From assembly GCA_018701395.1 (NCBI GenBank), contig JABIWU010000003.1, positions 1-64,000 on the forward strand: a stretch of DNA of 64,000 nucleotides, read 5' to 3'. Every line of letters begins with the position of its first letter. Position 1 is the stretch's first letter. Source of the DNA: Phycisphaerae bacterium (GTDB taxonomy: Bacteria; Planctomycetota; Phycisphaerae; Phycisphaerales; SM1A02). The position numbers and the translations under genes are program-made. Under the pieces are notes generated by a model, which saw nothing but the letters and a program-made list of their open reading frames with translations, was not told where the DNA came from and did no database searches. Of this stretch, positions 31,900 to 44,286 are shown piece after piece.

Positions 31900-31939
31900 A
31901 TTGAAACTAATCGGACCCCTTCATCGTATCATAGGATAT

Positions 31940-34900
31940 ATGGTGGATGATTATTCAACTCACGAAGACGAACCTGTAGAACGCGAATTTGACCCTAATG
32001 CTATCACGCACGATGCCGATACCGCGGACAATAATTGGCTTGAATCTAATGTTTCACCAAAGGTAGACGAATGGGTTGGAAAAACAATCGGGCAATCTCA
32101 AATTATTCAAATAATCGGTTCCGGAGGAATGGGAAATGTGTATGAAGCAAGGCAAATGCACCCGAACCGTTCGGTCGCGCTCAAAATAGTTAAATCCGCA
32201 GCAGCAACTCCCATAACGTTGCAACGTTTTGAAATGGAAAGTGAAATGTTGGCTCGGTTTCAACATCCAGGCATTGCTCAAGTGTATGACTCTGGACATC
32301 AAATGCAAGGCGACATATTGCTTCCATTTTTTGTAATGGAGTACGTGCTAGGTAGCAGGTCAATTACAGATTATGCAGAAGATGAGCATCTTTCTCGAGA
32401 GGGTCGTTTAGAACTTTTATTGTTGGTTTTCAATGCAGTGCAGTATGGTCACGGCAGAGGTGTCATACATCGTGATTTAAAACCTTCAAACATTTTAATT
32501 ACAACTGCAGGAATGCCAAAAGTAATTGACTTCGGCGTTGCGCTCAGGTCGGACTCTGATGAAATAGAAACAACAATTACATCAACGGGTAGATTTGTCG
32601 GGACTTTGCAGTGGGCGAGTCCAGAACAGTGCGGAGATGATCCACATGATGTGGATATCCGAACGGATGTGTATTCCCTTGGTGTGATTATGTATCAGTT
32701 GATGGTTGGTGAATTGCCCTACTCAATGAAGGGAATACCTTTATATAGGGCACCAATAGTTGTTCGCGAAACAAAACCAGTTCCGCCTCGTTCAATCGAC
32801 CCAACTATTCCAGTTGATGTAGAACAAATTATTGCAAAAGCACTGTGTAAAGATCGTAAGTTACGATATGAGTCTGTAGCCGAGTTAGCTATGGACGTTC
32901 GTAGATTTTTAAGCAACGAACCGATTCACGCAAAGCCACCGTCAAAATTGCGACAGTTGAAATTGTACGCAAAAAGAAATCAGTTGAAATTTAAAGCAGG
33001 AATAGTTGTGTTTTTGGCTTTAATTCTCGGCGTGACAGGTTTGGTGTGGGGTTTGGTCGAGTCAGAAAAAAGATCGAAAGAGTTGCAGAGGTTATATGTA
33101 ACGGCAAAGTCAGCAACGCGGACTGCAGAACGAAGGGCGTACACCGCTACGATTGGGGCAGCGCAAGTAGCAATTGCAAATAATTCATGGTTAATGGCGC
33201 GTCACCACTTAGACTCGACCGATCGTGGGTATCGCGGTTGGGAGTGGAATTACCTTCGTAGATTTGTTGATCATTCCATTGGCGTTTGGCCTGTAGGTGA
33301 TCGACCAAATATATTAGCAACTTCACCAAATGGAGAATCTGTTGCAGTTGCTTTTGAAGGTGTTCGAATTGGCATAATAGACGAGAAGAGAGAAGTTCTT
33401 CGGACAATCCAAATGTCAGATAGAGTAAGCACGCTAGCATTTACCGGGGACGGCGCATTGTTAGTTGTGGGTATGTCCAATGGTGTAATTGCAATTGTTG
33501 ATACTAAAGACAACACCCTCCTTGCTTTTACAGATGAAGTCCCCTCTGTTGAATCGATAGCGCCAACGAACAGCGATTATTTTGCAACCGGTCACAGTGA
33601 TGGTATCGTTAGGATTTGGAAAACTGATGGCACTTTACTCCGCACTATAAATACAGGCAACGGGACTATTCTTTCTATAGCGTACGATAGTACGGGCACA
33701 CAACTTGCGATTGGTAAAACAGATGGAGTTGTTCAAATTTGGAATGAAAGCAGAAGTGAATTTCAAATGCACCAAGAAGCTCACGAAGATGCGGTATATG
33801 ATTTAATTTTTCTAGAGAACGGGAAATTAGTTAGTGTTGGGGGCGACGGCGTCATGGAAGTTTGGGACCCAGACACAAAAAATTTATTAAATAAAATACA
33901 AGTGAATTCAGACGCAATATTTAGTGTTACAGAAGTTGACGGAACTGTTGCAACAGCAGGGCAAGACGGCATCATTCGGATTTGGTCAACGAGCGATTTT
34001 GCTTTGCTAGATGAACTGGTTGGACATGATGACTGGATTTGGTCAATCGAGTCTGTGGGAGACAATCGATTGGCCAGCGTTTCAAGAGACGGCGATATTC
34101 GATGGTGGAGTTCTGAATTGCTAATTTCGTCGACAGCTAGAACTTTAGGAAAGTTGCCTGCATCTGATATTGCATTTGTTTTTGATGCTAAGTTAGCAGT
34201 AGTATCCGAATTTGATTCCGATGTTCAACTCTTAGATTTCGTTACTGGCGAAAGCAAAATATTGCGTTCTGTAACAAATGATGAATTAACTATAGTGAAG
34301 CATGTTCCTACGACTTCAATGTTAGTAACGGGTGATGTGCGAGGAAATGTTCGACTCTGGGACACAGATTTGATGTTGCAAACTTCATTAGTTGGAATTT
34401 GCGATGGGCAAATATCGTCGCTTGCAGTATCTGAGTTTGGCAAATTTATTGCTGCGGGTACACTGAGTGGCGGGATCTATGTCTGGGATATGCAGAGTAA
34501 TCAATTAGTGTTGGATTATGTTGTATCGAACGCCAACGTTCTCTCTATGACATTTGGCAGTAAAGCCAATACTATTTTTGTTTCTACAAGCCGTGATGCA
34601 GTTATAGCACTTGCTATTAAACCCAAGCAAGAATTGTGGCGAAAGGAATCTAGTATAGATGTAATGGTGCTGGAATATTTGTCAAACTCAAATGTGCTTC
34701 TTGCAGCATCTCCAAATAATACCATTGAGCTACTTGATGTTTCTGATGGTAGTGTGTTGCAAACGGCAAACGCAAAAGGCGCGACTCTTCGCGATGTTGC
34801 TGTTTTTCCAGACGAAAATCGTTTTGTGACAGTTCTTACAGATGGAACAGTAAGTGTTTGGGATGCATCGTTTTTATATTTAATCGCTTCATTTTCTTCT

Positions 34901-35029
34901 TCGGAATCGGCGGATTGTATAGGCGTCTCAAGTGATGGTACTATTGTTTCGGTCGGTGGCGGTGGCTCAGAGATTAATTTTATGGATGGTTTGTCACGGA
35001 ATGCCAGACTAATAAAAAGGGAACAATGA
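31940..35029 (+). CDS. Ser/Thr protein kinase fused to a WD40 propeller
   Basis: 1029 residues. Kinase domain about 45-330: Gly loop GSGGMGNVYEA, VALKIVK lysine, VIHRDLKPSNILI catalytic loop, DFGVAL, GTLQWASPEQ. One membrane segment at about 352-374. After a helical stretch ending WEWNYLRR, at least ten WD40-type repeats fill the C-terminus (HSDGIVRIW, GGDGVMEVWD, GQDGIIRIW, DVRGNVRLWD, TDGTVSVWD). All key catalytic residues are present. The propeller is presumably extracytoplasmic and may sense a ligand. This fusion is common in planctomycetes. The ATG at 31940 has AGGA upstream. The stop overlaps nadC (ATGA). Confidence 0.93.
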   Translation: MVDDYSTHEDEPVEREFDPNAITHDADTADNNWLESNVSPKVDEWVGKTIGQSQIIQIIGSGGMGNVYEARQMHPNRSVALKIVKSAAATPITLQRFEMESEMLARFQHPGIAQVYDSGHQMQGDILLPFFVMEYVLGSRSITDYAEDEHLSREGRLELLLLVFNAVQYGHGRGVIHRDLKPSNILITTAGMPKVIDFGVALRSDSDEIETTITSTGRFVGTLQWASPEQCGDDPHDVDIRTDVYSLGVIMYQLMVGELPYSMKGIPLYRAPIVVRETKPVPPRSIDPTIPVDVEQIIAKALCKDRKLRYESVAELAMDVRRFLSNEPIHAKPPSKLRQLKLYAKRNQLKFKAGIVVFLALILGVTGLVWGLVESEKRSKELQRLYVTAKSATRTAERRAYTATIGAAQVAIANNSWLMARHHLDSTDRGYRGWEWNYLRRFVDHSIGVWPVGDRPNILATSPNGESVAVAFEGVRIGIIDEKREVLRTIQMSDRVSTLAFTGDGALLVVGMSNGVIAIVDTKDNTLLAFTDEVPSVESIAPTNSDYFATGHSDGIVRIWKTDGTLLRTINTGNGTILSIAYDSTGTQLAIGKTDGVVQIWNESRSEFQMHQEAHEDAVYDLIFLENGKLVSVGGDGVMEVWDPDTKNLLNKIQVNSDAIFSVTEVDGTVATAGQDGIIRIWSTSDFALLDELVGHDDWIWSIESVGDNRLASVSRDGDIRWWSSELLISSTARTLGKLPASDIAFVFDAKLAVVSEFDSDVQLLDFVTGESKILRSVTNDELTIVKHVPTTSMLVTGDVRGNVRLWDTDLMLQTSLVGICDGQISSLAVSEFGKFIAAGTLSGGIYVWDMQSNQLVLDYVVSNANVLSMTFGSKANTIFVSTSRDAVIALAIKPKQELWRKESSIDVMVLEYLSNSNVLLAASPNNTIELLDVSDGSVLQTANAKGATLRDVAVFPDENRFVTVLTDGTVSVWDASFLYLIASFSSSESADCIGVSSDGTIVSVGGGGSEINFMDGLSRNARLIKREQ

Positions 35030-36560: not shown

Positions 36561-36655
36561 ACCACACGAATTAAATAAGCCCTTGGATACTAAATGCTCT
36601 GCAGACAGTTATGTAGCCAAGGGCTAATTAAACGGTTCGCTAGCCATTGTGTGGT
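36561..36655. repeat. Nested inverted repeats between birA and the membrane operon
   Basis: Outer arms ACCACAC (36561-36567) and GTGTGGT (36649-36655), extendable to ten pairs with one bulge. Inner arms AGCCCTTGG (36578-36586) and CCAAGGGCT (36617-36625), extendable by flanking AATT. The 3' outer arm abuts the promoter -10 of the next operon. No T-run follows, so a simple terminator does not explain it. Confidence 0.65.
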
Positions 36656-36660
36656 AGAAT
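36652..36660 (+). promoter_or_regulatory. Extended -10 of the GlmL-like operon
   Basis: TGGTAGAAT, a TGn extended -10, ends nine bases before the ATG at 36670. The mRNA would begin at about 36667, so it would be nearly leaderless. The -10 overlaps the outer inverted-repeat arm. Confidence 0.5.
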
Positions 36661-36669
36661 ATCGGGTCT

Positions 36670-37092
36670 ATGGAATCGGCAAGCCTAGTTGAGATGCAAT
36701 GGAAGGTATGTCCAGCCAAGATCTACCCTCAAAAAGCGTTGTTTGGTTGGGTTTTAATCATAGTTTTAGGTCTCATGATTTCAACTACTAGTATTCTCTT
36801 GGGTATCTGTTTGACAGGAATTCTCATAGCGACACAAGCAACTTTTTTGTTTCATTCGACGTTTACAATTACGAATGAGGGTCTAGTTGCTAAATATCCT
36901 TTTCGCAAAAAACAATATAAGTGGGAGCAGGTACGCAGAGTCGCATTTATGAAGGATGTCTGCTACATGTTTTCAAGGAAAAAACCATCAAATTTGGATG
37001 GCTGGACTGGAATCGCAGTTCTATATGGCGACAATCGAGACATTGTCATTGAGAAAATCAAATCATATCTCAACAAGGATGTGACTGTATGA
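36670..37092 (+). CDS. Small membrane protein with a bacterial PH-like domain
   Basis: 140 residues. Two closely spaced membrane segments (about 24-41 and 45-62) are followed by a small cytoplasmic beta domain with FTITNEGLVAKYPFRKKQYKW and VRRVAF, the pattern of bacterial PH (bPH) domains. First gene of an eight-gene operon that runs to 44229. Its stop overlaps the next start (ATGA). No enzyme motif is present. Confidence 0.7.
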   Translation: MESASLVEMQWKVCPAKIYPQKALFGWVLIIVLGLMISTTSILLGICLTGILIATQATFLFHSTFTITNEGLVAKYPFRKKQYKWEQVRRVAFMKDVCYMFSRKKPSNLDGWTGIAVLYGDNRDIVIEKIKSYLNKDVTV

Positions 37093-37433
37093 AAAAAGGG
37101 TGGTTTAAAAAAGCGTTTCATGTGGATTCAGATGAGTCAATTGAGCCCAATGAAAAGCAAAAAAATGCCCTAGACATGCTCTGTCGGGGTATCATTCGGC
37201 GCGGCTTAACCACTCCCGCCATTATTGGCGTGGAAATGGGGCGACCCTTGAACTTTCTTGGCTCGCAGACAATGCACTTTTTCACTCCGCTCATTTCAGC
37301 GTTTGTGCCAACAGAAAGTTGGAGCGCTGTTGCGGAGTTCTTAGAACACCGTGGTTCGGTTGATTGGATCCGAAACCGCATCGAAGAGTTAGAGAATGAG
37401 ATGGATACAACCAAAGAGAAACCAAAAAAATGA
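37089..37433 (+). CDS. Small soluble protein in the GlmL-like operon
   Basis: 114 residues. A basic start (MKKGWFKKAF) and charged linker, then a helical core with LDMLCRGIIRRGLTTPAIIGVEMGRP, and a Glu/Lys coiled-coil-like tail. No known motif. It overlaps both neighbours start to stop (ATGA at each end), so it is translationally coupled to the ATPase gene and probably a stoichiometric partner. Confidence 0.75.
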   Translation: MKKGWFKKAFHVDSDESIEPNEKQKNALDMLCRGIIRRGLTTPAIIGVEMGRPLNFLGSQTMHFFTPLISAFVPTESWSAVAEFLEHRGSVDWIRNRIEELENEMDTTKEKPKK

Positions 37434-39256
37434 CAATCGATTTAGAAAACATTAGTGTCATCCTTGCAACCGACTGTGGTAGTACAACTACCAAGGCAAT
37501 CCTCATTGAAAAAATTGATGGTCAATACCGTCAAACGTACCGTGGTGAAGCGCCAACAACAGTTGAGAAACCATTTGCGAATGTAACCATTGGTGTTACG
37601 AACGCGGTGACTGAGATCAGCGAGCTTGCCGGTCGTAAATTAACGAATGAAGATGGAACTATTAATCAGCCAGCACAAGGCGATGATGGTTGCGATTTAT
37701 ATATTTCAACTTCTAGTGCGGGCGGTGGTCTTCAAATGATGGTCGCTGGTGTCATTGCAGAAATGACTGCAGCATCTGCAAAACGCGCAGCGCTTGGGGC
37801 AGGCGCGATTGTTATGGATGTAATTTCAACCAATGACAAACGCCGACCTCACGAACAGATTCAAAGAATTCGCGAACTTCGTCCAGACATGATTTTGATT
37901 TCAGGCGGAACTGACGGCGGAACAACAGAAAAAGTAGTTCAACTTGCTGAACTTATTGCTCCCGCAAAACCGCAGCCACGATTTGGCAGTGAATATGAAA
38001 TGCCTATTATTTTTGCAGGCAATAAAATGGCAGCGAGTGAAGTCGAATCAACACTTCAAGAAGATTGGATTGACCTTGCGATTGTTGAAAATCTTCGTCC
38101 AAAACTTGAGCAGGAAAATTTAGGCCCAGCACGTGATAAAATTCATGATGTATTCCTTGAGCACGTTATGGCACACGCTCCCGGCTACGACATGTTAATG
38201 GATTGGTCTGATGCGCCAATTATGCCAACACCAGGGGCTGTTGGCGATATTTTGCAAACAATTGCAAAGAAAGAAAACATTAATGTTGTAGGAGTTGATA
38301 TCGGCGGCGCAACAACTGACGTGTTTAGTGTTTTCGAGGGAACATTTAACAGAACAGTTTCTGCAAACCTTGGAATGAGTTATTCCATCTCAAATGTGTG
38401 TGCAGAAGCAACGATGCCGAACGTTTTGCGTTGGGTGCATTTTGACATGGACGAACGACAACTTCGCAACCGTGTTAAAAATAAAATGATTCGCCCAACA
38501 ACAATTCCGCAATCGCTCGAGTCCCTTATTTTTGAACAAGCAGTTGCTCGCGAAGCACTTCGCCTTGCATACAAACAACATAAAGAATTTGCGACAACCC
38601 TTAAGGGAGTCCAACAGCAACGAACTGTTGGCGATACGTTTAGTCAGCAAACTGGCGGCAATACTATTGTTAACAATATGACATTGAACTTACTCGTTGC
38701 TTCTGGTGGTGTTCTTTCCCATGCGCCTAGTATGAACCAAACAGCGATGATGCTTGTTGATGCGTTTGAACCTGAAGGTTGCACTGATCTTGCGAAAGAC
38801 TCAATCTTTATGATGCCTCACCTTGGCGTGCTTTCCGCAGTACATCCGGAAGCTGCGGCACAAGTCTTTGAACGCGATTGCTTGGTGTACTTGGGTACAT
38901 GCATTGCGGCTAAAGGTTTAGGTAAACTCGGCAAGCCTTGTTTCTCATGGACACTTTCTGGCGATGTCAATGCATCAGGAACTTGCAATTTTGGTGATCT
39001 TGAATGTATCGATATGGCTCCAGATCAAACAGCTACTATTTTGTGCGAACCAGCAAGAGGATTTGACCTTGGTGCTGGTAACGGCAAAAAAGTTTCGCAT
39101 GAAGTTCGTGGCGGAACTGTCGGATTGATTATCGATGGTCGTGGGCGACCCCTTGGCCTTCCGGAAGATAGGCAACAATGCCAAATGTCCATGAAAACAT
39201 GGGTAGAAAACATGGCACTCTATGAGGAGATTGACGTTGCAGTCGCAACGGCTTAA
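37430..39256 (+). CDS. GlmL/MutL-like ASKHA-fold ATPase
   Basis: 608 residues. It opens with the ASKHA phosphate-1 loop ATDCGSTTTKAILIE and has a second phosphate loop GVDIGGATTDVFSVFEG near 286-302. SSAGGGLQMMVAGVI, LISGGTDGGTTEKVV and a C-terminal GRGRPLGLP are visible. This is the family annotated as glutamate mutase L or MutL, thought to reactivate a B12 mutase, but it is about 150 residues longer than clostridial GlmL. No mutase subunit gene is in the window. Its companions here are membrane proteins. Confidence 0.8.
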   Translation: MTIDLENISVILATDCGSTTTKAILIEKIDGQYRQTYRGEAPTTVEKPFANVTIGVTNAVTEISELAGRKLTNEDGTINQPAQGDDGCDLYISTSSAGGGLQMMVAGVIAEMTAASAKRAALGAGAIVMDVISTNDKRRPHEQIQRIRELRPDMILISGGTDGGTTEKVVQLAELIAPAKPQPRFGSEYEMPIIFAGNKMAASEVESTLQEDWIDLAIVENLRPKLEQENLGPARDKIHDVFLEHVMAHAPGYDMLMDWSDAPIMPTPGAVGDILQTIAKKENINVVGVDIGGATTDVFSVFEGTFNRTVSANLGMSYSISNVCAEATMPNVLRWVHFDMDERQLRNRVKNKMIRPTTIPQSLESLIFEQAVAREALRLAYKQHKEFATTLKGVQQQRTVGDTFSQQTGGNTIVNNMTLNLLVASGGVLSHAPSMNQTAMMLVDAFEPEGCTDLAKDSIFMMPHLGVLSAVHPEAAAQVFERDCLVYLGTCIAAKGLGKLGKPCFSWTLSGDVNASGTCNFGDLECIDMAPDQTATILCEPARGFDLGAGNGKKVSHEVRGGTVGLIIDGRGRPLGLPEDRQQCQMSMKTWVENMALYEEIDVAVATA

Positions 39257-39259
39257 AAA

Positions 39260-40381
39260 ATGGCACACGCATACACACCAGGATTGAAAGTCACTAACCG
39301 AATGAAGCACAGCGTCGTTCGGATGTTGCCAATAAAAGGCGATGTAATGGTTAAGGTTGGCGATTCAGTTGTTGCTGATCAAATTGTCGCGGCAACCTAC
39401 ATGCCAGGCGATGTTTACCCACTGAATATGGCAAACCTTCTCGCTGTACCACCCAAAGATGTTTTGTCATTAATGATATGCAAAGAGGGTCAAAAAGTCG
39501 AGAAAGGCGAGGCAGTCGCTGAGACTGCAGGTATCTTCGGCAAGTTTAAGAAAAAATATAATTCGCCATATGCAGGAACTATCGAAACGGTTTCAGATGT
39601 GACAGGACAGGTAATTCTTCGAGGGCCAGATATTCCAGTTGAAGTAAAAGCGTATGTCACTGGAACGGTTACGGATGTAAATCCAGAAATTGGTTGCACG
39701 GTCGAATCGGACGTCGCATTTATTCAAGGCATCTTCGGTATCGGAGGCGAAACCTGTGGCACGATTAAATTCGCAGTCAAGGCAAGCGACGAAATACTCA
39801 CCGCATCTTCAATTACACAAGATATGAAGGGGTGTGTAGTCATCGGTGGAGCTAGAATTACAGATGATTCAATTGAAGAAGCGAGAAAAGTCGGCGCTGT
39901 TGCTCTTGTCGGCGGGGGTATGGATGACCAAGATTTGAAAGAGTTTCTTGGATATGACCTTGGGGTTGCAATTACAGGAAGCGAAAAGAAGGGGATTACT
40001 GTGATTGTTACGGAGGGGTTCGGTGATATTGCCATGGCTAATCGAACGTTCGACTTATTGAAGCGATTTGAAGGTCATGAGGCATCTGTAAATGGTGCAA
40101 CGCAAATTCGAGCCGGTGTTATGCGTCCAGAAATCATTATTCCCATCGATTCTGGCGCCAGCGAAGTGGAAATAGAATACGAGGGTGGGTATCTAGAAAT
40201 CGGTAAATCACTACGAATAATCCGAGATCCGTACTTTGGAATTATCGGGACGGTAAAAGCACTGCCCTCCGAGCCACATGTTTTGGGTTCAGGCTCAAAA
40301 GCCAGAGTTCTTGAAGTAGAACTTAAAACGGGAGAATCGGTTATCGTGCCCAGAGCTAATGTTGAACTTATTGAGGAATAG
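39260..40381 (+). CDS. Barrel-sandwich (lipoyl-like) protein with C-terminal KOW-like barrel
   Basis: 373 residues. The N-terminal half repeats beta-hairpin patterns of biotinyl/lipoyl or RnfC/NqrA-type folds (IKGDVMVKVGDSVVADQIV, KEGQKVEKGEAVAE, SPYAGTIETVSD) but has no MKM biotinylation or DKA lipoylation site. The middle part is alpha/beta with GCVVIGGARI. The C-terminus (IIGTVKALP ... VELKTGESVIVPRANVELIE) resembles a KOW/SH3 barrel. It is soluble and follows the ATPase gene by three bases. Confidence 0.7.
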   Translation: MAHAYTPGLKVTNRMKHSVVRMLPIKGDVMVKVGDSVVADQIVAATYMPGDVYPLNMANLLAVPPKDVLSLMICKEGQKVEKGEAVAETAGIFGKFKKKYNSPYAGTIETVSDVTGQVILRGPDIPVEVKAYVTGTVTDVNPEIGCTVESDVAFIQGIFGIGGETCGTIKFAVKASDEILTASSITQDMKGCVVIGGARITDDSIEEARKVGAVALVGGGMDDQDLKEFLGYDLGVAITGSEKKGITVIVTEGFGDIAMANRTFDLLKRFEGHEASVNGATQIRAGVMRPEIIIPIDSGASEVEIEYEGGYLEIGKSLRIIRDPYFGIIGTVKALPSEPHVLGSGSKARVLEVELKTGESVIVPRANVELIEE

Positions 40382-40397
40382 TACCGAGTAATAATCT

Positions 40398-41717
40398 ATG
40401 AAAAAAAGTCACACGTTCTATATAGGTGTTTTTGTATCACTCGCATACTCGGGTGTTGCATCTGCACTTTCTTTCGAAACGCTCCCCGAACCGCCGATGG
40501 ATTTAGTGGTGATTGATACGCCTGATGATGCAGGCAATTCAGTGGAATTGGATTGGGCACTTTCTGGAACAGATATTTTCAACCCGTTGATTGAAAATGC
40601 TAGCGATACAGATCCGTCCACTATTGTTGCCACGTATTCAATCGAGCGAAAAGTTTCCGATGCAATCGGAAGCGAACTCGACGAGTCAGATTTGAATTGG
40701 CAGAAAGTCTCTGAAGCGGGCGCTGGCGAATCACACTGGACCGACCGAACAGTAGAGCGTGGTTGGACCTATGACTACCGAATTTGTTCAGTCGATAATC
40801 AAGGCGACAGTTCAACTTGGTGCAATGGAGAGCCTGTAACACCAGTTATGCAGATATTTAATATGTCAAAAGCGTGGCTTGCAATATTCATGCTTATTTT
40901 TGGTGGGTTTATCGCTTACTTTATTAATCAGGCGCGAGCAGGAAAACCGTTGTGGGTTCGAAAAATTGCAGGGCTTGAAGCGATTGATGAAGCAGTCGGC
41001 CGCGCAACAGAAATGGGACGTCCTGTTCTGTTCGTTGCGGGCATTCAAGATATCAATGAAATCCAAACGCTAGCTGGTTTGACGGTTTTATCACGCGTGG
41101 CAAAAACAGCAGCAGAGTATGGTGCACAAATAGAAGTACCAACCTGTCGTTCTCTAGTAATGGCTGCTGCTCGGGAAACTGTTGAAGCGGCATACCTTTC
41201 AGCAGGCGCTCCAGATGCATACCAACCAGATAAAATTCACTACTTAACAGATGAACAATTTGCATTTGTTGCAGGTGTAACTGGCTACATGGTTCGCGAA
41301 GAACCAGCCGCATGTATTTACATGGGTGGCTTCTACGCTGAATCACTCATTCTCGCAGAAACAGGTAATCACATCGGCGCGATTCAAGTTGCTGGTACTG
41401 CGATGCCAAGCCAGTTGCCTTTCTTTGTTGCTTCGTGCGATTACACGTTGATTGGTGAAGAATTCTTTGCAGCGTCGGCGTATCTTTCAGGTGACCCACT
41501 GCAAATTGGTTCACTTAAAGGTCAAGATTACGGCAAGTTCTTTAGTGTTTTAATTCTTGTCATTGGCATTTTCTTTGCCTCGATTATCTCGCTCTCGGAT
41601 AGCGAGGATGGGCTTGCAGTCGATTCGCTTAATTACATCAATAACAATATGCTTGGCTCAGAGGGCTTGGGCTCATTTGGCGGGGGAGACACAGACATAG
41701 AGGGAGACGACTCGTGA
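40398..41717 (+). CDS. Membrane protein with exported Fn3-like domain and cytoplasmic alpha/beta domain
   Basis: 439 residues. Signal peptide (about 1-23), an exported Fn3-like beta domain (about 30-155, with WTYDYRICSVDNQGDSS), a membrane segment near 160-178, a cytoplasmic alpha/beta domain (EMGRPVLFVAGI, CIYMGGFYAESLILAE), then a second membrane segment near 381-399 and a Gly/Asp tail. I recall similar cytoplasmic parts labelled DUF6754, but this is memory, not a search. It overlaps the next gene (GTGA). Confidence 0.72.
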   Translation: MKKSHTFYIGVFVSLAYSGVASALSFETLPEPPMDLVVIDTPDDAGNSVELDWALSGTDIFNPLIENASDTDPSTIVATYSIERKVSDAIGSELDESDLNWQKVSEAGAGESHWTDRTVERGWTYDYRICSVDNQGDSSTWCNGEPVTPVMQIFNMSKAWLAIFMLIFGGFIAYFINQARAGKPLWVRKIAGLEAIDEAVGRATEMGRPVLFVAGIQDINEIQTLAGLTVLSRVAKTAAEYGAQIEVPTCRSLVMAAARETVEAAYLSAGAPDAYQPDKIHYLTDEQFAFVAGVTGYMVREEPAACIYMGGFYAESLILAETGNHIGAIQVAGTAMPSQLPFFVASCDYTLIGEEFFAASAYLSGDPLQIGSLKGQDYGKFFSVLILVIGIFFASIISLSDSEDGLAVDSLNYINNNMLGSEGLGSFGGGDTDIEGDDS

Positions 41718-42409
41718 AAAGAACAGTCCCATTAATAATTGCAATTGTTGCTGGCTTTGTCCTGCTGATTGCAAACTTCATCCCTTTTGCTGAGGACTGG
41801 GGTTTAACTGCTCAGGAATGGTTTAACATTCTTGCAGTTGGCGCAATGATTTTAGGTGGGGGAAACCTTGTCAAACTGCATCTCATGAAAATTTCTGGTC
41901 AACGGAAGGGTTGGGGTTACTCAGTCGTGACCATTGGTTGTTTCGTTGGCACACTTATTTTTGGTTTATTCAAGATAGGCGTGCATCCAAATGAAATCTA
42001 TCCAAATGTTGGATGGTCAGGGTACTACCTTGAAGGTGGCTCGGGCTTGTGGTGGATTTATCAACACATGATTGTTCCACTTACATCGATGATGTTTGCA
42101 ATGTTGGCCTTCTACGTTGCCACAGCGGCATTCCGAGCGTTTCGCGCAAAAAACACAGAGGCAACCTTGTTGCTTGTCACAGCGGGCGTCGTTCTGCTTG
42201 GTCAAACCTATGCGGGCGTTTGGCTCTTCGAGGGCTGGTTACCAGAATCTATGCAATGGCTTCGTTTTGACCACTTAACTGAATGGGTTATGAATATTCC
42301 AAACACGGGAGGTACACGGGCAATAACGATTGGTATCGCACTTGGCGTTGTTGCAACCTCCCTTCGAATTCTTCTGGGCGTTGACCGCTCCTATCTGGGG
42401 CAAGATTAA
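41714..42409 (+). CDS. Polytopic membrane protein of the GlmL-like operon
   Basis: 231 residues beginning at GTG, with about six hydrophobic segments. Loops contain conserved-looking Trp and Gly (GWSGYYLEGGSGLWWIYQH, MQWLRFDHLTEWV). No transporter or enzyme signature. It overlaps the upstream gene by four bases and is followed at three bases by the next one. Confidence 0.72.
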   Translation: MKRTVPLIIAIVAGFVLLIANFIPFAEDWGLTAQEWFNILAVGAMILGGGNLVKLHLMKISGQRKGWGYSVVTIGCFVGTLIFGLFKIGVHPNEIYPNVGWSGYYLEGGSGLWWIYQHMIVPLTSMMFAMLAFYVATAAFRAFRAKNTEATLLLVTAGVVLLGQTYAGVWLFEGWLPESMQWLRFDHLTEWVMNIPNTGGTRAITIGIALGVVATSLRILLGVDRSYLGQD

Positions 42410-42412
42410 ACC

Positions 42413-43264
42413 ATGTTAAAAATACTCCAAAATATAGACCGTCGTTGGGTTTTTCTCTTTATGTTGTTAGCAGTCGCAATTCCGATTCTTGCAAAAACTG
42501 TTTTTCCTGTAAATATATCACCGCAAACAATGATGGTCTTCAATGCAATTGAAGATTTGCCAGATGGATCAAGGATTCTACTCTCGTATGATTTTGACCC
42601 TGCATCGCAAGGCGAACTTCTTCCGATGGCGCAAGCGTTTACTCGGCATTGTTCCATCAAAGGACACAAACAATATTACATGGCGCTTTGGCCACTGGGT
42701 TCACCGATGGTTGACTTGAGCATTGACACGATTGAATCTGAATATCCGAACTTGGTGTATGGTGAAGATTACGTGAAGTTCGATTACAAAACTGGTGGCG
42801 AAGCAGTTATCCGAATGATTACGCAAGACTTACGCGGTATGTACGAATTAGATTCAAAAGGTGTTTCACTTGACAACATTCCAATGACAAAGAATATTAA
42901 AAATATTCAAGACATGGATTTAATCATCAATGTAAGTGCAGGCGACCCAGGCACGAAACAATGGGTCCAATTCGCTGCAACGCCGTTTGGAATAACCACA
43001 GTTTCTGGTTGTACTGGAGTACAAGCACCTCAAATGTACCCGTACATTCCAGATCAACTTGCTGGTGTTCTTGGCGCGATTAAAGCAGCGGCAGAATACG
43101 AAGCAGCAATCGATGAAGTATATCCATCAATTGCAAGCAACCCAAAGGCACAAGAAGCCAAACGAAGAATGGGACCGCAGTTGGTGGCTCATGGTTTGAT
43201 GGTTTGTTTAATTATTCTTGGCAACATAATTTTCTTTGTTAGCCGAAAGCGAGGTTTAGCGTAA
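42413..43264 (+). CDS. Bitopic membrane protein of the GlmL-like operon
   Basis: 283 residues. An N-terminal membrane segment (about 12-30) and a C-terminal one (about 257-276) enclose a roughly 220-residue alpha/beta domain with LLSYDFDPASQGELLPMAQAF and MDLIINVSAGDPGTKQWVQF. The domain is probably extracytoplasmic if the N-terminus is inside. No known catalytic motif. Its stop shares a base with the next start (TAATG). Confidence 0.72.
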   Translation: MLKILQNIDRRWVFLFMLLAVAIPILAKTVFPVNISPQTMMVFNAIEDLPDGSRILLSYDFDPASQGELLPMAQAFTRHCSIKGHKQYYMALWPLGSPMVDLSIDTIESEYPNLVYGEDYVKFDYKTGGEAVIRMITQDLRGMYELDSKGVSLDNIPMTKNIKNIQDMDLIINVSAGDPGTKQWVQFAATPFGITTVSGCTGVQAPQMYPYIPDQLAGVLGAIKAAAEYEAAIDEVYPSIASNPKAQEAKRRMGPQLVAHGLMVCLIILGNIIFFVSRKRGLA

Positions 43265-44229
43265 TGGATAAATCATCAGAAGCATCCAAAAATTCAAACA
43301 CCTTAATTTGGGGTATCATTTTTATTATTGGCGCAATATTGCTTGTGTGGAGTATGTCTACTTCAAGAACAGGCCAAGTCTGGGTTACACCAGAACAGCA
43401 TGCTTTTACTGCAGGCGCTGATGGTAAGTACAGCGCAACAGATACTCCATCTTCTGAAGATATTGCATGGGTAACGTACAACGTTGTTCCAGATAGTGAA
43501 CTAACTCAAGAAGTAATTGATAGTGGCAGTGCAACTTTAAGTTGGTCAAGAACAATTGGTTTGTGGTTAGCAGCAATCTTCACGCTGTTTATTCTGTCGT
43601 TCTTGGTCGGTGATAATCCAGCATACAAATTTGCAGAAGCAATGGTCGTTGGGACTTCTGCCGGCTATGTCATGGTTATTGGAATATGGGATGTTTTTGT
43701 ACCACTCTTGCTGGGTAAATTGGCTCCTGGATTTGTGCAAACAGCATTTCTTCCAGGCATGGATGCATCAGCAGGAACGCAGCTTCTCTATATTATTCCA
43801 GCAATATTAATCATCATGTTGTTGTTCCAATTGATGCCAAGCGGAGGCTGGATTAGCCGATGGCCAATCGCATTCTTTATTGGTATTACTGCGGGCTACC
43901 GAATGATTGGGTATGTTGAAGCAGATCTTGTTGCTCAAATTAAAGCTGCGATTGTCCCACTATGGGTTACTGGCGAAAATGGTTTTGTTTTCTGGCCGTC
44001 TTTTAACGCAGTTATACTGACTGTAGCAACACTCAGCGCGATGATTTACTTCTTCTTCTCGGTCGAGCACAAGGGACTTCTCGGAAAGACTGCTCGAGTT
44101 GGTATTTGGTTCTTAATGATTACGTTTGGCGCTTCATTTGGGTACACCGTGATGGGTCGTATTGCACTCTTGGCAGCACGATTGGAATTCTTGTTCGGAG
44201 ATTGGCTCCACTTCATCCCAAGCAGTTAA
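43264..44229 (+). CDS. Polytopic membrane protein, last gene of the GlmL-like operon
   Basis: 321 residues with about eight hydrophobic segments. After the first (about 15-31) comes a 70-residue soluble stretch (VWVTPEQHAFTAG...), then seven more segments with Gly-rich and Trp-rich loops. No transporter signature is recognised. A strong terminator begins 27 bases after the stop, which marks the end of the operon. Confidence 0.72.
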   Translation: MDKSSEASKNSNTLIWGIIFIIGAILLVWSMSTSRTGQVWVTPEQHAFTAGADGKYSATDTPSSEDIAWVTYNVVPDSELTQEVIDSGSATLSWSRTIGLWLAAIFTLFILSFLVGDNPAYKFAEAMVVGTSAGYVMVIGIWDVFVPLLLGKLAPGFVQTAFLPGMDASAGTQLLYIIPAILIIMLLFQLMPSGGWISRWPIAFFIGITAGYRMIGYVEADLVAQIKAAIVPLWVTGENGFVFWPSFNAVILTVATLSAMIYFFFSVEHKGLLGKTARVGIWFLMITFGASFGYTVMGRIALLAARLEFLFGDWLHFIPSS

Positions 44230-44255
44230 TTTTTTATGGTTTAAAAGCACTTTTT

Positions 44256-44286
44256 AAGAGAGCACGGCAAGCCGTGCTCTCTTTTT
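44256..44286 (+). terminator. Rho-independent terminator of the GlmL-like operon
   Basis: AAGAGAGCACGG and CCGTGCTCTCTT pair over 12 bases around a CAAG loop and are followed by a T-run. It separates the membrane operon from the rpmF-fab operon. Confidence 0.9.

Follow-up and report, generated by a model that had tools for sequence, protein, structure and literature searches.

An eight-gene planctomycete operon pairing a MutL-family predicted ATPase with membrane proteins

Eight genes of a marine Phycisphaerales genome, here called p1 to p8, form an operon whose arrangement exceeds chance and whose gene order recurs in dozens of genomes. They probably encode one dedicated, previously uncharacterised membrane machine that would be driven or gated by ATP. 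The original prediction likewise read the set as a membrane complex that an ATPase powers or regulates, and gene linkage, the co-occurrence of dispersed parts and natural p3–p4 fusions lend this reading support. No function appears to have been assigned to the system and no described system matched it; DUF6754, the family of p5, was named in no open-access full-text paper searched, and the main text of the anammox and Planctopirus papers gave no match. The system is large and strongly conserved, and both the streamlined marine genomes of 1.9 Mb and the anammox bacteria sampled retain it.

Operon layout, gene order and modules

The eight open reading frames span positions 36670–44229 of the window, i.e., the whole stretch of 64,000 nucleotides that was analysed, and all lie on the + strand, as had been predicted. 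The host genome measures 1.94 Mb at 97.7% completeness, and the named genomes closest to it are MAGs of marine Phycisphaerales. From p1 through p8, the junctions are −4, −4, +3, +16, −4, +3 and −1 bases. The counts given earlier are off by one: there are four overlaps and three gaps (3, 16 and 3 bases) instead of five and two. A −10 element and a strong terminator had been proposed as the boundaries of the set, and both withstood closer analysis. The extended −10 (TGG-TAGAAT, with TAGAAT at 36655–36660, + strand) lies 10 bases upstream of the p1 ATG and reads TGGTAGAAT; TGGTAGAAT also stands 5′ of p1 in three other loci (L002, L004, L041), and TGATAGAAT takes its place in L007. No clear −35 accompanies the extended −10 ahead of p1, and a generic sigma-70 promoter scan across the operon region gave matches at chance numbers only. 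The operon transcript is nearly leaderless. At the other end, a rho-independent terminator with a 12 bp stem (44256–44283, + strand) has a minimum free energy of −24.8 kcal/mol across the 56 nt folded (z −4.0), and none of the shuffles was as good. Upstream of the operon are nadC and birA, the latter immediately adjacent, and downstream are rpmF, plsX, fabH and fabD. Flanking genes (nadC-birA, rpmF-plsX-fabH-fabD, nuo, threonine synthase) differ by lineage and were not used as functional clues.

The domain guesses of the original prediction hold for p1 (PH-like), p3 (GlmL/MutL), p4 (barrel-sandwich/KOW) and p5 (Fn3). The first gene, p1 (36670–37092, + strand), encodes 140 aa with a hydrophobic N-terminal region and a bacterial-PH-like domain, whose match to bPH_6 is weak here (E 0.0015) and above the Pfam cut-off in a relative (L030, 1e-05). 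It is the least conserved member of the operon and is frequently missing. The product of p2 (37089–37433, + strand; 114 aa) is soluble and without a Pfam family.

Gene order was counted in 158 fetched planctomycete loci with labelled genes, some of which share a genome, so that the counts are not all independent. The order is well conserved in other genomes: p1 is followed by p2 in 61/61 cases, p3 by p4 in 108/108, p4 by p5 in 64/65, p5 by p6 in 76/80, p6 by p7 in 73/73 and p7 by p8 in 70/71. The full order p1 to p8 occurs in 24 loci and p2 to p8 in 15, and only one locus of the 158 has genes on mixed strands. On this basis, the operon appears to be composed of two modules, A (p2-p3-p4) and B (p5-p6-p7-p8), with p2 mostly attached to the former and in some genomes to the latter (p2 precedes p3 104 times and p5 seven times). 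Neither module is broken up in rearranged loci, for instance 1-2-5-6-7-8-3-4, and four loci (L110, L115, L130 and L152) carry module B twice in tandem beside a single module A. As a block, p5 to p8 move, duplicate and are inherited, and the two modules nearly always share a genome.

Co-occurrence was scored with Fisher tests in a sample of 294 planctomycete genomes, and every tested pair of operon genes gave p<1e-48, a value that overstates independence because the genomes are related and the sample is phylogenetically structured. Counted as both present, first only, second only and neither, the figures are 69/11/1/213 for p3 and p4, 70/10/6/208 for p3 and p5, and 76/0/1/217 for p5 and p7. MutL exceeds its cut-off in 80 genomes and DUF6754 in 76, with both in 70, and p3, p4, p5 and p7 are found together in 67/294. 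In one genome (G313) the genes are dispersed yet retained, with p5 at 3.53 Mb, p3 at 2.01 Mb and p7 at 0.44 Mb; in another (G249), p3 and p5 are both kept at a distance of ~2.9 Mb. Frequent dispersal of whole modules or of individual genes, again without their loss, is seen in family f32 and in family f50, whose tested genomes are anammox bacteria as judged by hydrazine synthase. In G125, the homologues of p5 to p8 lie near 528–533 kb and those of p3 and p4 near 1.054–1.058 Mb. That scattered genes persist speaks more for functional dependence than for simple inheritance of a single operon. In five genomes, all drafts of 76–95% completeness, module B occurs but neither p3 nor p4 does, and one genome (G188) has module A without module B. 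A single scan of genome contigs, in a survey that covered Planctomycetota, found matches to the operon genes in planctomycetes only, and the plasmids and viral contigs searched contained no copies of the system.

The MutL-family protein p3 and the B12 mutases

The third gene (37430–39256, + strand) encodes a predicted ASKHA ATPase of 608 aa, which matches MutL (PF13941) over the whole profile (1.2e-129, positions 1–450/450). Its nucleotide motifs are intact: D15-C-G-S-T-T-T for phosphate-1, D290-I-G-G-A-T-T-D for phosphate-2 and S425-G-G for adenosine. In 102 sequences, D15CGSTTTK, D290IGGATTD and S425GG are at least 95% conserved, and with a mean column identity of 76% p3 is the most conserved part of the set.

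GlmL (MutL) is known from the glutamate mutase cluster, where it is thought to act as a reactivase. With GlmL/MutL (PF13941; NF040745, TIGR01319), p3 shares the ASKHA fold and the MutL domain, but it has a C-terminal extension of ~120 aa that GlmL lacks, its partners are membrane proteins, and its genome is without glutamate mutase. Three NCBIfam models of GlmL type, NF040745, TIGR01319 and NF040744, were scored against p3, and none of the cut-offs was reached: 240 vs 475 bits for the GlmL equivalog, 176 vs 204 bits for the GlmL family model and 214.5 vs 600 bits for Or-4 (NF040744). The Or-4 protein of ornithine degradation likewise has the MutL domain in common with p3, whereas the operon has no ornithine aminomutase genes. 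Identity to p3 is at least 52% in main-line orthologues, ~44% in the second copies of two loci (L127 and L139) and 25–29% in the MutL proteins of G230 and of the genomes with glutamate mutase E (GlmE). Judged by these scores and identities, p3 is a member of a MutL subfamily distinct from the GlmL of glutamate mutase.

The MutL label that Pfam gives to p3 nevertheless invites the explanation that it reactivates, as GlmL would, a B12 mutase whose gene lies elsewhere, with the membrane genes as bystanders. The presence of a methylmalonyl-CoA mutase gene in the host genome would fit this explanation, and it also means that the absence of a B12 mutase is true of the operon, which contains no mutase gene, but not of the genome. 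However, the host genome lacks GlmE (PF06368), and the five of the 294 planctomycete genomes that have it all carry MutL and never DUF6754. Methylmalonyl-CoA mutase occurs in 199/294 genomes and is mildly anti-associated with MutL (odds ratio 0.54, p 0.025), being absent from 29 of the 70 genomes that combine MutL with DUF6754. Of the two outcomes named in advance as refuting the original prediction, a co-occurring B12 mutase elsewhere and an unconserved gene order, neither was observed, and the membrane genes track p3 even if dispersed. The B12 reactivase is refuted as far as genomics can refute it, and its probability is considered negligible. The label "glutamate mutase L" on these ATPases misleads metabolic reconstruction: among the 80 MutL-bearing planctomycete genomes of the sample, 70 have DUF6754 and only five have mutase subunit E.

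The adaptor candidate p4 and its union with p3

The protein encoded by p4 (39260–40381, + strand; 373 aa) is predicted to comprise a barrel-sandwich hybrid domain of the RnfC/NqrA-N/biotinyl-like type, a central domain and a C-terminal KOW-like part. A scan of 25 relatives gave matches to Biotin_lipoyl in 25/25, RnfC_N in 14/25 (best 2.5e-05), KOW in 7/25 and NQRA_N in 5/25, and the barrel-sandwich/KOW assignment therefore stands, with p4 itself scoring 17.8 vs a cut-off of 25.6 bits for RnfC_N. In the p4 alignment, no cysteine is conserved and no lysine is invariant or near-invariant; p4 is therefore no biotinyl carrier and probably no Fe-S protein either. A role as a biotinyl/lipoyl carrier was rejected for lack of a conserved modifiable lysine, despite birA just upstream.

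These matches, along with the several polytopic partners, could be taken to indicate an Rnf/Nqr-like, redox-driven ion pump in which p4 is the RnfC/NqrA-like peripheral subunit. What p4 appears to share with RnfC/NqrA is the barrel-sandwich hybrid domain. It differs from them in the absence of conserved cysteines, the KOW-like C-terminal part and the ASKHA partner, an ATPase by motif, and neither p6 nor p8 matches an Rnf/Nqr subunit family. Such a pump is very unlikely.

Natural fusions of p3 and p4 were found in three loci (L163, L164 and L165), comprising two ORFs in G204 (824 and 835 aa) and one in G159 whose frame is disrupted. In the fusion ORFs, MutL comes first and the p4 domains follow, with p4 starting roughly at the place of the p3 C-terminal extension. 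This Rosetta-stone evidence points to p3 and p4 acting as a single unit. At the level of sequence, p4 is accordingly grouped with p3, which refines the earlier description.

The membrane proteins and the proposed machine

Hydropathy analysis found membrane segments in p1, p5, p6, p7 and p8, and their topology was predicted from hydropathy and charge. The product of p5 (40398–41717, + strand; 439 aa) has a signal-like N-terminus, followed by a predicted arrangement of exoplasmic Fn3 (27–151), TM (~159–179), cytosolic DUF6754 (~186–376) and a second TM (~381–399), the charge distribution placing DUF6754 in the cytosol and Fn3 outside. It is a full member of DUF6754 (PF20539; 1.7e-119, 398 vs a gathering score of 27 bits), a Pfam entry that gives no function. 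In the p5 model, the Fn3 part is confident (Z 12.9, rmsd 2.1, 99 residues) and the DUF6754 part has low confidence. Two polytopic proteins are predicted, p6 (41714–42409, + strand; 231 aa, GTG start) with ~6 TMs and p8 (43264–44229, + strand; 321 aa) with ~8 TMs, the latter best conserved in its C-terminal part. Between them, p7 (42413–43264, + strand; 283 aa) carries a Rossmann-like alpha/beta domain (~34–240) flanked by two TMs; by the charge rule, this domain is probably exoplasmic. The AlphaFold model of p7 (pLDDT 86.4, pTM 0.86) had no Foldseek match below E 0.001; its best PDB match was a CODH epsilon-type subunit (VIA Z 9.0, rmsd 3.4, 145 residues), followed by TON_0340, RecJ and dehydrogenases. 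These matches are generic and therefore indicate only the common Rossmann-like arrangement. No significant Pfam family was found for p2, p6, p7 or p8, and a PDB profile search yielded no relatives of solved structure for p3 to p8. The soluble domains of p5 and p7 both consist of helix-strand repeats in the same order, each between two TMs; homology between them is not claimed because a profile comparison gave nothing.

In the mechanism proposed here, p3 would bind and hydrolyse ATP, and its lobes would open and close. As an adaptor, p4, with p2, may pass this movement on to DUF6754, the cytosolic domain of p5, and thereby drive or gate the membrane core formed by p5 to p8, with p3 and p4 as the cytosolic motor unit. 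The work done could lie in transport, or else in maturing or remodelling the membrane complex. A single motor unit could serve at least two membrane cores. The proposed machine would resemble the PilM-PilN-PilO-PilP and GspL assemblies, in which an ASKHA/actin-like cytosolic protein works with membrane proteins, but PilM is FtsA-like and not MutL-like, and p6 and p8 are polytopic.

The linkage of p3 and p4 with p5 to p8 is also what the genes of a metabolic pathway would show. Alternatively, p3 could be an ATP-dependent enzyme similar to the ASKHA relatives hydantoinase and oxoprolinase, activating a small molecule, which p5 to p8 would then bind, convert or translocate. Its high conservation is what is expected of catalytic subunits, acidic residues conserved in p5 and p7 might form active sites, and a Hydantoinase_A match at the phosphate-2 motif exceeds the Pfam cut-off (5.8e-06). 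This match, however, covers only ~40 residues at a motif shared among ASKHA proteins, no biosynthetic enzymes travel with the set, and p4 is without obvious catalytic residues, which leaves the enzyme as an unlikely alternative to the motor. Even less probable is that p3–p4 acts strictly like GlmL/DdrA, as a chaperone or reactivase that swaps a cofactor in its client p5 to p8, or resets this complex, instead of powering it. The nearest named family of p3 is indeed GlmL, and one p3–p4 serves several copies of p5 to p8. On the other hand, profile scans recognised no cofactor-binding family in p5 to p8, and a housekeeping chaperone would not need gene linkage this tight and near-stoichiometric.

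No ASKHA protein is known to power transport, which weighs against the motor. If the motor reading is true, they gain a role in powering membrane complexes that is not established for the MutL branch. A further, more tentative possibility is that the operon represents a class of membrane machine not described before. Its four-subunit core would be powered by an ASKHA (actin/Hsp70-fold) ATPase through a barrel-sandwich adaptor, one motor could serve several cores, and whole planctomycete families as well as anammox bacteria would have it as a fixed trait. The two modules and the p3–p4 fusions make pull-down and knockout tests straightforward.

The exoplasmic parts of the proposed machine, namely Fn3 of p5 and its replacements, the inserts of p6 and the Rossmann-like domain of p7, may recognise a substrate or an envelope partner; such recognition would agree with a core that is conserved and an outer face that varies. 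The predicted exoplasmic loop 3 of p6 takes whole inserted domains in relatives, including an FHA-like insert (L150) and one of 588 residues (L161), both in the predicted exoplasmic loop. Elsewhere, p7 carries HEAT repeats (L137) and p5 has an extension of 848 aa (L144).

The MutL/DUF6754 system in anammox genomes

Hydrazine synthase alpha was present in 4/4 genomes tested from family f50 (G203, G249, G125 and G288), which, judged by this marker sequence, are anammox bacteria. The MutL/DUF6754 system was likewise detected in 4/4 of them. Among the sampled f50 genomes, nearly all contain both MutL and DUF6754, and the system is as a rule arranged at two separate sites.

Variation in the ATPase pair and the membrane proteins

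The MutL-type ATPase p3 and the barrel-sandwich protein p4 occur as natural fusions at L163:3275-5749, L164:5310-7817 and L165:233-2808, the last copy appearing frame-disrupted. A second, more divergent p3-p4 pair, with ~44% identity to the window p3, lies at L127:6391-9332 and L139:2001-5017, in genomes that also carry the main set.

In some relatives, the membrane proteins p5, p6 and p7 carry whole additional domains within their predicted exoplasmic parts. The p6 protein of L150 (4594-5853) bears an FHA-like extra domain and that of L161 (4181-6592) a long, helical-looking insert, p7 of L137 (4075-6006) contains HEAT repeats, and p5 of L144 (2-3325) has a long, beta-rich-looking extension.

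Upstream sequence and neighboring genes

An inverted repeat, AGCCCTTGG...CCAAGGGCT, is located between birA and p1 (window 36578-36627). In more distant Phycisphaerales (L010, L012, L013, L021, L042), a TAAGCT motif recurs 5' of p1 where the window's genus has TAGAAT; it is possibly a lineage-specific -10 element.

Directly upstream of nadC-birA, the window encodes a large PknB-like Ser/Thr kinase (31901-35029), and similar kinase genes are repeatedly found near the operon in other loci. Several Planctomycetaceae MAGs (L024, L027, L032, L048) carry GTPase-like genes directly 3' of the operon. In L048 and L134, nuo genes of complex I lie 5' of it, together with a TatD-like gene.
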